Made by a program: the position numbers and the translations under genes. Below are positions 33,024-60,866 of a stretch of DNA of 64,000 nucleotides, in pieces; within the stretch, counting starts at the first letter, position 1, and each line of letters starts with the position of its first letter. Origin of the DNA: Candidatus Methanoperedens sp. Lineage in GTDB: Archaea; Halobacteriota; Methanosarcinia; Methanosarcinales; Methanoperedenaceae. Under the pieces are notes generated by a model. That model was not told where the DNA came from. It did no database searches and worked only from the letters and a program-made list of their open reading frames with translations. The stretch is taken from positions 1 through 64,000 of the forward strand of contig VEPM01000013.1 in assembly GCA_012026795.1 (NCBI GenBank). The letters run 5' to 3'.

Positions 33024-33072
33024 TAACCGCAGAACGCGGATAAACACAGATTGGTATCTGCGTTCATACTGA
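33024..33072. repeat. Degenerate copy of the CGCAGA/CACAGAT repeat family
   Basis: The sequence from ACCGCAGAACGCGGATAAAC onward, through CACAGAT and then ATCTGCGTTCAT, forms a small hairpin (CAGAT/ATCTG around TGGT). It resembles the CACAGATGAA-type repeats that bracket the GxxExxY gene at 59.3-59.7 kb. Confidence 0.45.
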
Positions 33073-57708: not shown

Positions 57709-58638
57709 TCATATATCAAGAATTGACCTGAATATCAGCAAAATATTGCGTTTCCGTTCCCTTATCCTTCGCACGGAATACGGAAACCATTTTTTGCCAT
57801 AAGGGATATAATCAACAACTACAAATCCTTTTTTTACAAGCCTGTTCTTCAACTCTTCCCTGACCCCATGAAGCATCTGGAATTCGATCTTCTTTTTATG
57901 AGCCTTGTTGGCTTCAATTGCCTCATTGACCAGGCGGTCATCATGTGTAGCAATAGCAAAAAACGGGCTCCTGTAGAACAGGAATCCCATGAGTTTTGAG
58001 AAATTTATTGTTACATCTGCGCGGCTTGAATATGCTATTTTACTATTTTCTTTATAAGCGCCTTTTACGAGGCGTATGATGCCGCCCATTGATATAATTC
58101 TTCGGATATCGCTTTCACTTCTTTTAAGGTTTGTCTGGATCGCTATTCCTGTGTTTTTGTATTTCTTAAAAATAGTAAGGTAAATATCGATCGTATCCTC
58201 TGTGTAAGGCGAGTTCTCCATATCGATCCATACGAAAATATCGTTAGCAGCGCTTACAATCGTTTCCACATGGGATAAGCACAGGTTTTTATCGATCCCA
58301 AGCCCAAGCTGCGTGAGTTTTATGGAAAGTGAGGAGTTCAGTTTTGCATCTTTAATAGCCCGCAGGATTCCAAGGTTCTCGATCTTGTTTTTCTCGGCCT
58401 CTTCTCTATCTTTTACATGCTCGCCAAGAAAATTGATTATGGCGCCAATGCCCCTGTTGTTTGCCTTTTTTGCGCTTATGATGGCGTCATCTAAGGTTTC
58501 ACCAGCTATCCATTGGCGTGCAAACCTGATGAAGAAACTCATAACCCTTGTTAGAAATTGGGGTTGGGGGTACTTAAGGGCTGTGTTACCCAAAATAATC
58601 ACCAAAAATCCAATATAGCGTATGACATAGTGAATCAT
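57709..58638 (-). CDS. Proline dehydrogenase
   Basis: The enzyme oxidises proline to pyrroline-5-carboxylate with FAD. The barrel contains SIKLTQLGLGID, VWIDMENSPYTEDTID, GIAIQTNLKRSESDI, RLVKGAYKE, AIATHDDRLV and the C-terminal FVVVDYIPYGKKWFPYSVRR. The N-terminus (about 20 residues) is hydrophobic. The start chosen, 58638, is the Met that lies 7-8 bases after GGTGAG; a longer open frame to 58767 is antisense to the neighbouring gene. Confidence 0.85.
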   Translation of the reverse strand: MIHYVIRYIGFLVIILGNTALKYPQPQFLTRVMSFFIRFARQWIAGETLDDAIISAKKANNRGIGAIINFLGEHVKDREEAEKNKIENLGILRAIKDAKLNSSLSIKLTQLGLGIDKNLCLSHVETIVSAANDIFVWIDMENSPYTEDTIDIYLTIFKKYKNTGIAIQTNLKRSESDIRRIISMGGIIRLVKGAYKENSKIAYSSRADVTINFSKLMGFLFYRSPFFAIATHDDRLVNEAIEANKAHKKKIEFQMLHGVREELKNRLVKKGFVVVDYIPYGKKWFPYSVRRIRERKRNILLIFRSILDI

Positions 58639-58710
58639 GCATATCTCACCAGAAAGGAAACGATACAACAAACCGCAAAGGACGCAAAGAACACAAAATC
58701 CAGAGATAAT

Positions 58711-58983
58711 ATGAAAAAGAATGACGAATTCAAGGATGTGTATGAAGATGTTGTAATTATAAACCATCCTGATTCAATACATAAAATAGAGAAGGGACTA
58801 AAAGCCGCGCTTGGAGTTGCTCCCAGAGGGCAGACTTCATACAAAAGAAAATTAAGTGAGAGCGGGGAAATATTGCTGCTGCGACTGCCAAAAGAGCTTA
58901 GAGAATCATATCATATTGAAAAAGGCACACATGCCCTGGTTACTCCTATAGGGCCGAAAAAAGCTATTGTAGAGTTCGAGTGA
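58711..58983 (+). CDS. Hypothetical small protein
   Basis: The 90-residue protein starts MKKNDEFKDVYEDVVI and ends GPKKAIVEFE; the tail has an AbrB-like strand pattern (ELRESYHIEKGTHALVTPIG). The open frame extends upstream through a repeat (CCGCAAAGGACGCAAAGAAC at 58671-58690) that is probably not coding. Unrecognised family. It is divergent from proline dehydrogenase. Confidence 0.55.
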   Translation: MKKNDEFKDVYEDVVIINHPDSIHKIEKGLKAALGVAPRGQTSYKRKLSESGEILLLRLPKELRESYHIEKGTHALVTPIGPKKAIVEFE

Positions 58984-59200
58984 TTTCAGAACTTCCAGTT
59001 TTTCACCTTCAATAAAAATGTTTTTCGTATCGTCAAAACCGAAGGATTCTTCCTTGCATGGAACAAGAGTTACAGTGGTGGAAGACTGTAATACCCGGAA
59101 AGCGTCGGACTTGCCTGCCCAGTTTAAAACATAGCGTTCGTTTTTAAATTCGATAGCCTTACCAAGAGTGATTTACAGTTTTTCCCAGTCGATTTTGCCT
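58984..59200 (-). pseudogene. Fragment of a type III-like DNA methyltransferase (Mod)
   Basis: The minus strand reads NERYVLNWAGKSDAFRVLQS, then LVPCKEESFGFDDTKNIFIE and GEKLEVLKS, which is the conserved N-terminal region of site-specific DNA-methyltransferases of the Mod type, just before the catalytic motif. A TAA in frame precedes it, and the continuation into the catalytic domain is missing, replaced by the gene at 58711. It is a decayed restriction-modification remnant. Confidence 0.75.
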
Positions 59201-59258
59201 TAAATCACATTATACTAACAACGAATATTTTCAGTGAAGTATTTATGGTACTGTAATT

Positions 59259-59675
59259 ATGTTGAAAGCTATGGTATCTGAAGAAACGGAACCACAGATG
59301 AACACAGATAAACACAGATTGAACGCAATGTCTGAGCGGATCATAGGGGCTGCTTTTGAAGTAAGCAATGTTCTTGGAGCAGGTTTTCTGGAAAAAGTCT
59401 ATGAAAATGCTTTGAATATTGAGTTAAATTTGAGAGGATTACAAACCTTTCAACAGGCACCATTAAAGGTATATTATAAGGATGAATTGGTTGGCGACTA
59501 CATAGCTGATATTTTGGTTGAAAATGAGATAATAATTGAAGTTAAAGCGGTAAAAGAAATCGATGCAATTCATTTTGCTCAATGCTTAAATTATCTTAGA
59601 ATAACTGGGCGTAAACTTTGTCTTTTGTTGAATTTCAGTAAACCAAGAGTAGAAATTAAAAGAATCATGATGTGA
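59259..59675 (+). CDS. GxxExxY protein (PD-(D/E)XK-like)
   Basis: The 138-residue frame includes the family motif GAGFLEKVYENAL (GxxExxY) and the nuclease-like DYIADILVENEIIIEVKAV with D..ExK. Family function is unknown, but the fold is PD-(D/E)XK-like. The N-terminal residues EPQMNTDKHRLN are read through a CACAGATGAA-type repeat; Met14 or Met24 may be the true start. Inverted copies of the repeat flank the gene. Confidence 0.8.
   Translation: MLKAMVSEETEPQMNTDKHRLNAMSERIIGAAFEVSNVLGAGFLEKVYENALNIELNLRGLQTFQQAPLKVYYKDELVGDYIADILVENEIIIEVKAVKEIDAIHFAQCLNYLRITGRKLCLLLNFSKPRVEIKRIMM
59291..59320 (+). repeat. Left inverted repeat of the GxxExxY unit
   Basis: A 30-base sequence with an internal period of about 10 (ACCACAGATGAACACAGATA, then AACACAGATT). 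It lies in the 5' part of the GxxExxY frame. Its inverted partner is at 59695-59726. Confidence 0.85.
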
Positions 59676-59694
59676 ATCAAATTCCAATGAAACA

Positions 59695-59726
59695 AATCTG
59701 TGGTTCATCTGTGTTCATCTGTGGTT
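59695..59726 (-). repeat. Right inverted repeat of the GxxExxY unit
   Basis: Reverse complement of 59291-59320 apart from one substitution and one or two inserted bases. It lies 19 bases after the GxxExxY stop, so the two copies bracket the gene. Confidence 0.85.
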
Positions 59727-59792
59727 AATAAATTTCCAAAAACAAAATAACCATATTTCACAAAAATATGAAAACGATATGCTAAGATACTA

Positions 59793-60866
59793 TCAGGATG
59801 AATCCGCCCCTAAAACCTGAAATCTCATCATCCCCACATAAAGCACAACCGCCACAGCCGCATACATCCCGCAATAAACCAGTGCCTGGGCGCCAATAGA
59901 ATCGGCTGACAGCCTTGTCACAAGGTTAAAAGGGGAATTTGTGAACAGATATCCCATGAGGAACATCAATATCAGCACAAGTGAATACAAATACTGTGAG
60001 ATCATCCTCTTTTTATATTTTACTGCTATCATCGCCCCGATAATAACAACGATCGCTCCAGTTATTCCTGACAGAAGTAGTATTAATCCGGTGTTGTAAA
60101 CCACCACTCCATTTAACCTGACAAGAAGAAGCCACAAAAAAGCCTGTGCAGGGACAATAACAACAGCAGTGATCATCTTTCCATTCAATATCCGGGAAAA
60201 TGACACTGGTGTTACCAGCAGCAAATCCATGGTCTTGCGTTCATATTCCTCGGTCAGCATATCGATAATCAGGCCACCGGAAATGAAAACGGGTGTGAAT
60301 ACAAGAAGCGGGATAAGTATCCCGAATATGAATTCAAAATAGGTCGATGTTTTTTTCGGAATATTATCTACATAGAGTTTTATTGGTTCAAAACCGATCC
60401 TTGCACCTCTTATATCCCGGACATAGCCTTCATATTCCTCCAGGGGTTTCTTTAGCTCCAGTGTTACGAAAGTGCCCCTTATATCTGATTTTGGAAGATA
60501 GATCACCAGATTGATAATTTCATTGCCTCCCGACCCTTCTTTCGGGATAACGATGATGGCATCAATCTTATTATTATAAAAATCAACAAGTGCCGCGTCA
60601 ACATCTGTATAATAATGCGGGTTTACCTGGCCTTTTTCAATGAATTGCCTTAATTCACCCTGCCCGACAATTCCCACATTGGCCCTGGGAGCGTCATATT
60701 TGCTCAGAGAGGACGGATCAAAAAATGAAGCAAGACCAATAACGATCAAAGATGAGAAAGATGCAATTAACAATTGTACGATTATTGCAAGTATTAGTGT
60801 TTTCTCAAACAGGAGGGATTTAATCTCCTTTTTCACAATAACCCCTGTATCAGCCAAAAACAACAC
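59793..60866 (-). CDS. ABC-2 type transporter permease
   Basis: The 357-residue membrane protein starts with a cytoplasmic helix (VKKEIKSLLFEKTLILA), a long extracytoplasmic domain (residues 50-185), then five membrane helices with MLTEEYERKTMDLLLVTPVS, the ABC-2 permease coupling signature. It probably acts with the permease upstream (overlap 17 bases) and the ATPase at 62721. Substrate unknown. Confidence 0.85.
   Translation of the reverse strand: MLFLADTGVIVKKEIKSLLFEKTLILAIIVQLLIASFSSLIVIGLASFFDPSSLSKYDAPRANVGIVGQGELRQFIEKGQVNPHYYTDVDAALVDFYNNKIDAIIVIPKEGSGGNEIINLVIYLPKSDIRGTFVTLELKKPLEEYEGYVRDIRGARIGFEPIKLYVDNIPKKTSTYFEFIFGILIPLLVFTPVFISGGLIIDMLTEEYERKTMDLLLVTPVSFSRILNGKMITAVVIVPAQAFLWLLLVRLNGVVVYNTGLILLLSGITGAIVVIIGAMIAVKYKKRMISQYLYSLVLILMFLMGYLFTNSPFNLVTRLSADSIGAQALVYCGMYAAVAVVLYVGMMRFQVLGADSS

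Follow-up and report, generated by a model that had tools for sequence, protein, structure and literature searches.

GxxExxY genes are, as a general rule, bracketed by paired inverted arms built of short tandem units, the arm motif follows the protein tree, and gene-less copies of the same motifs are dispersed through genomes; at orthologous sites, gene and arms are present in some genomes and absent from others. The gene and the dispersed repeats probably form an undescribed gene-plus-repeat element. We put at about even odds (a probability of roughly 0.5) the reading that gene and flanking arms together make up a single selfish unit within a two-part system, in which the nuclease would act on palindromes in a RAYT/REPIN-like manner.

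The features of one such locus, and of related repeats elsewhere in the window (the whole 64-kb stretch of Candidatus Methanoperedens DNA that was analysed), are as follows.

59259..59675, + strand: GxxExxY reading frame, 138 aa (TIGR04256, PF13366; AlphaFold2 pLDDT 92.6)
59328-59669, + strand: conserved PD-(D/E)XK domain of the GxxExxY frame (profile matches)
59290..59319, + strand: left arm, with three CACAGAT-type units at a spacing of about 10 bp, doubling as N-terminal codons (EPQMNTDKHRLN)
59694..59726, - strand: right arm, again with three units, matching the left arm in reverse complement
59005..59798, no strand: variable interval containing the element, with other, unrelated sequence at the orthologous interval in five relatives
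33026..33072, no strand: decayed gene-less palindrome of the window's arm motif
58671..58700, + strand: single arm whose motif (CGCAAAG) belongs to another class, one characteristic of a different GxxExxY subfamily

The left arm (59290-59319, AACCACAGATGAACACAGATAAACACAGAT) and the right arm (59694-59726, AAATCTGTGGTTCATCTGTGTTCATCTGTGGTT) share an ungapped core of 24 nt (59290-59313 and 59703-59726) that is 96% complementary, and this is the top inverted repeat with copies up to 700 bp apart in the 64 kb window, the next seven being at 70–80%. A preliminary description of this DNA had a 30-base inverted repeat enclosing the GxxExxY frame; the arms are confirmed, but the left one lies inside the longest reading frame (59259-59675), where it is translated as EPQMNTDKHRLN (the arm-derived stretch in related loci reads PQINTDEHRLNELSEK and similar), and the arms enclose the conserved domain (59328-59669) rather than the whole of that frame. 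The single ORF between the arms encodes the PD-(D/E)XK protein, without a DDE transposase. Two further repeats mentioned in the same description are also real. The degenerate copy near 33024-33072 lies at about 33026-33072 and has 1 mismatch to CRCAGATRAACRCAGAT at 33035-33051, and the repeat near 58671-58690, which had been called similar, contains CGCAAAGGACGCAAAG at 58674-58689 (0.01 expected by chance), but its motif belongs to the arms of a different GxxExxY subfamily.

The element occupies a variable spot whose contents differ from genome to genome, and the orthologous site in five relatives provides no clean empty site for the window's own element. In one locus orthologous to 58363-59800 (L104, G004:C79) the 5′ region of the proline dehydrogenase gene is partially duplicated, and different genes, one of them apparently PIN-like, are found where the window has GxxExxY. 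We also note that positions 20-96, where the window has only just begun, match the group II catalytic intron RF00029 (63.5 bits), and there is no rRNA match in the window.

The window protein matches TIGR04256 with 142.5 bits (cut-off 35) and PF13366 PDDEXK_3 with 139.9 bits (cut-off 22), and these are its only matches, an HUH tyrosine transposase (TnpA_REP) domain being absent. It belongs to the family by its GxxExxY and D...ExK motif residues, which are invariant or nearly so, and the catalytic D, ExK and downstream Q are conserved across GxxExxY proteins. The AlphaFold2 model has a mean pLDDT of 92.6 and a pTM of 0.84, and the nearest solved folds in a search with this model are the Cas4 protein SSO0001, lambda-type exonucleases, and other PD-(D/E)XK nucleases (TM about 0.5), with the PD-(D/E)XK homing endonuclease I-Bth0305I as a weak match; no solved structure is matched by sequence, and nothing credible by profile. 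The nuclease-like fold suggested in the preliminary description is thus borne out by profile, model and fold search alike, and GxxExxY is, as modelled, a minimal PD-(D/E)XK nuclease of the Cas4/lambda-exonuclease kind. There is no match to the defence families of PADLOC-DB at E values up to 1, and a single query (E 1e-5) finds GxxExxY in 6 of 72,556 plasmid records (i.e. nearly but not wholly absent) and in none of 50,697 phage records. Among open-licence papers mentioning GxxExxY, PF13366 or the motif strings, we found neither a description of the association between gene and repeats nor a described function for this widespread 'hypothetical' family. A partnership with reverse transcriptase was considered and rejected: the only paper with GxxExxY beside a reverse transcriptase places it where Cas4 is expected.

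The generality of the bracketing is apparent from 80 GxxExxY loci, those most similar to the query, taken from named genomes of archaea and many bacterial phyla. Defining paired arms as an inverted pair scoring at least 14 within 300 bp, we find them at 48 of the 72 loci with enough flank and at 4 of 865 shifted control windows, which have the same geometry and were moved 0.9 to 2.7 kb within the same loci (Fisher p about 2e-57); by the score used, about a third of the loci have no clear pair. The possibility raised at the outset that most GxxExxY genes lack such repeats therefore does not hold. In the host's own family the corresponding figure is 21 of 31 GxxExxY loci with enough flank. Among windows around other ORFs of 100–220 codons in these loci, 8 of 499 have a pair; two of these eight (L149, a strong tandem-unit repeat) fall on a single additional GxxExxY gene that had been overlooked, and a third (L137) falls on a four-helix-bundle gene, such that this blind control rediscovers the phenomenon. 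With the overlooked gene (L149:1196-1628), this planctomycete locus has two GxxExxY genes, and the arm motif of the overlooked one (CACGACGG) differs from that of the other.

The arms have a common grammar, with about three 7-bp cores, one every 9–10 bp, whose order is mirrored across the gene. Of 48 left arms, 43 have a period of 8, 9 or 10 bp, and in 34 of the 48 the periodicity is individually significant. The cores seen are CRCAGAT, CRCGGAT, ACAGGAT, CACGAAT, GCAAAG, CACAGAG, GCCAAG, GTTCGT, GCAGGAA and ACGAAA. Proteins of higher identity have more similar arms (Mantel 0.37, p 0.0005), and in a maximum-likelihood tree built from 67 proteins the motif class changes 18 times compared to a shuffled mean of 43, with none of 200 shuffles as low, although the clustering derives in part from near-copies and some deep forks are not settled by the tree. 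The CACGAAT, GCCAAG, GCAGGAA, GTTCGT and ACGAAA classes form one clade each. By record titles, the CACGAAT clade includes loci of Gallionellaceae, Cloacimonadota, Acidobacteriota and Neomarinimicrobiota, and members of the CRCGGAT group come from archaea, Chloroflexota, Bacteroidota, Desulfuromonadales and Armatimonadota; because one motif class extends across several phyla within a protein clade, the motif tracks the protein, not the host. Judged by these sequence comparisons, repeat and protein have co-evolved. Two loci are of separate note: L124 (2545-3106) has a 281 bp tandem duplication spanning the left arm and the start of a GxxExxY gene, and at L169 (365-912) an apparent PIN-domain gene (VapC-like by eye, with no NCBIfam match) has flanks that have the CGCCAAG arm motif in common.

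Arms also occur away from the gene. Pattern searches of the 3.59 Mb host genome find 57 copies of CACAGATRAACACAGAT with up to 2 mismatches and none of the pattern read backwards, and many of these copies pair inverted, at spacings that range from a hairpin loop of about 15 nt to a few hundred bp; the repeats are present in 32 of 34 genomes of the host family. Gene-less copies had been envisaged in the preliminary description as independent repeats at random intergenic sites, and they do occur, but they are non-random, being palindromes of the same motif. Read as associations among related genomes that are not fully independent, the copy numbers go with the gene: in 37 genomes searched, CACGAATNNACACGAAT has 9, 56 and 15 copies in the three that have GxxExxY with that arm (G121, G122 and G125) and 0–5 in nearly all others, the exception being G116 with 13 (p 9e-4); CRCAGATRNACRCAGAT has 13–96 copies in seven of the eight genomes that have this arm type, and 0–5 in 26 of 29 others (p 2e-5); and archaeal family members with the window's subfamily, intact or broken, have 17.7 copies per Mb versus 7.6 in the others (p 1e-4). 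Genomes (MAGs) without a detected GxxExxY gene still hold 2.5–16 copies per Mb. Gene-less palindromes of the ACAGGAT class have 26-bp arms and loops of about 6–20 nt, and are found in more than 10 different contexts. We also note that at L204, L207 and L212 palindromes of one motif class are nested within those of another, with CRCGGAT hairpins lying between paired CRCAGAT copies, and that the dispersed hairpins of the AGTTCGTT class (L215-L223) are oriented opposite to the gene-flanking arms (L090, L117, L118).

Comparison of loci between genomes reveals gain and loss. First, an insertion of about 690 bp with a GxxExxY gene at G000:C17 is absent from G004:C36, where the flanks abut (93% and 97% identity), and recurs in G012:C5 at 93% identity with unrelated flanks. 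The homology between these two copies runs past the arms, and both lie within a MITE-like carrier (L110:6128-6823, which is G000:C17, and L265, L266 and L267) with terminal repeats of its own (ACCCATATTTCGCAC / GTGCGAAATATGGGT); the outermost ends of the G000:C17 insertion are TIR-like (ATTTCGCAC / GTGCGAAAT). The same carrier in G012:C17 and G024:C64 contains, instead of the gene, an empty GACAGGAT palindrome with a 13–15 nt loop. As the gene-in-palindrome rides in this carrier, which is found in one subfamily only, the move is not creditable to GxxExxY and may be the carrier's doing. Secondly, a site between two conserved genes contains the gene and arm motif in G017, G025 and G026, has the gene mostly deleted in G000 (G000:C30), and is empty in about 15 to 20 other relatives, in which the two conserved genes nearly abut. 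Thirdly, copies of one subfamily in G001 and G030 share 488–494 bp at 91% identity amid unrelated flanks, with the ends of the shared segment coinciding with the arms. At L206 an arm pair encloses only the first codons of a GxxExxY gene, and both this locus and G000:C30 are, from what is left of them, remnants of deletion between arms. The gene with its arms is thus a unit, and the earlier suggestion that it is small and mobile or self-maintaining is supported by the commonness of paired arms, by the empty sites, and by the same arms and gene amid unrelated flanks. The search for empty sites and target duplications proposed with it gave the former, but no exact target-site duplication could be established at the two empty sites inspected (G000:C17 and G000:C30).

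Because motif and protein are matched across phyla, recognition and cutting by GxxExxY would be the simplest explanation, and for binding, cleavage, autonomous movement and the route of copying we infer the following scheme. The nuclease would recognise its own arm motif in a palindrome, whether as duplex, cruciform or single-strand hairpin, and would cut there; the result would be the copying or movement of palindromes bearing that motif, whether or not the loop contains the gene, in the manner of RAYT transposases with their REPINs. The non-autonomous partners would be the gene-less palindromes, some of them remnants of internal deletion. Counting against this scheme are the repeat copies in genomes where no GxxExxY gene is detected, the loci lacking a clear arm pair, the homology that runs past the arms in the carrier-borne copies, the failure to find an exact target duplication, and one subfamily in which gene-flanking arms and dispersed palindromes are oppositely oriented.

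RAYTs are low-copy chromosomal genes with flanking inverted repeats that also occur as non-autonomous inverted pairs, and, according to published reports, they are inherited vertically and do not occur on plasmids (PMC3116915, PMC8049555). The GxxExxY system resembles them in having a gene flanked by inverted motif copies and a motif dispersed as short inverted pairs, both of which we looked for and found, and also in the matching of motif to protein variant, the low copy number per genome, the vertical inheritance of some loci and the near absence from plasmids. It differs in that the protein is a PD-(D/E)XK nuclease, in that the arms are tandem 9–10 bp units rather than single REPs, and in its presence across archaea and many bacterial phyla. 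GxxExxY is not a RAYT, because the defining HUH domain is absent, and we regard RAYT/REPIN as the closest working analogy.

The same architecture surrounds a protein unrelated to GxxExxY. Genes of the four-helix-bundle family TIGR02436 (S23-like) have arms at 22 of 30 loci from many phyla (L224-L253) and at 1 of 229 controls, the arms consisting of different, mostly 7-bp tandem units (e.g. GGTATCA and AGTGGGT); a search of the host's class gave no such genes, and it was repeated in 35 genomes of other phyla. The 23S rRNA intervening sequences, in which an S23/IVP ORF occupies the loop of a stem of about 28 bp, are regarded as selfish (PMC4990558). The GxxExxY element shares with them a small ORF (about 120–140 codons) in the loop of an inverted repeat of about 28–30 bp, for a total of about 430–560 bp, but it lies outside rRNA, encodes a different protein fold and has tandem-unit arms. 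We therefore raise, tentatively and as a possibility well short of even odds, a broader class of mobile palindromes, hitherto undescribed, with GxxExxY proteins as its enzymes, each with its own 7-bp core per helical turn, S23-like genes as a second, non-homologous enzyme, and the 23S rRNA intervening sequences as a special case. Each subfamily would read its own core, cut, and drive the copying of both gene-bearing and gene-less forms.

Homing offers a different account, in which the nuclease would cut an uninterrupted gene-less palindrome and repair would copy the gene into the loop, splitting and thereby protecting the site, with the palindromes being spread by something else. The MITE-like carrier with its loop either empty (G012:C17, G024:C64) or filled by the gene (G000:C17, G012:C5) speaks for this, a motif that follows the protein also fits target specificity, and PD-(D/E)XK homing endonucleases are known, I-Bth0305I among them; as with these, GxxExxY is a small nuclease presumed to recognise a site interrupted by its own gene. 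However, it is not in an intron or intein, its site family is dispersed in many copies, and it has no sequence match to a solved structure. Homing also leaves both the spreader of the palindromes and their enrichment where the gene is present unexplained, and the gene remnants at L206 and G000:C30 reveal the reverse direction, loss, at least sometimes. We consider it unlikely.

It is also rather unlikely that unrelated transposases move MITE-like elements of which the arms are the ends or passengers, with GxxExxY as cargo serving, for example, in defence or repair. Here too the carrier with terminal repeats that also exists without the gene is in favor, as are the four-helix-bundle genes with the same architecture and other motifs, and like MITEs the system has gene-less short forms with matching ends, internal-deletion derivatives and empty sites. 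But cargo should not set end sequences, and the arm motif tracks protein phylogeny within multi-phylum subfamilies; the carrier is confined to one subfamily, PADLOC gives no defence match, and unlike MITEs the element has end sequences varying by subfamily within a tandem-unit grammar, no DDE transposase and no fixed target duplication that we could find.

Least probable of these, and in our view distinctly improbable, is an element acting as RNA, in which the arms would be a long stem around a coding loop for processing, stability or termination, spread by rare recombination: the architecture equals that of the S23/IVP intervening sequences (PMC4990558), free S23-like genes have arms as described above, and arms of the same locus match better than same-type arms of different loci (0.81 versus 0.60, partly a selection effect), but in the window's subfamily translation runs through the left arm, a stem has no need of a 9–10 bp tandem grammar, and DNA recognition agrees better with the helical-turn spacing of the units and with a nuclease whose relatives act on DNA (Cas4, lambda exonuclease). 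A chance origin of the arms is rejected by the 57 versus 0 motif copies, by the 48 of 72 versus 4 of 865 paired windows, and by the rank of the arm core as best inverted repeat in the window.

The GxxExxY family thus gains a concrete substrate to test, in the form of subfamily-specific arms and of motifs scattered through the carrier genomes. Intergenic repeats of a kind that we met in organisms ranging from archaea to Planctomycetota and Bacteroidota are thereby explained as well. Should the nuclease indeed act on palindromes, the system would be a non-homologous counterpart of RAYT/REPIN, with a readable code between protein subfamily and DNA motif.
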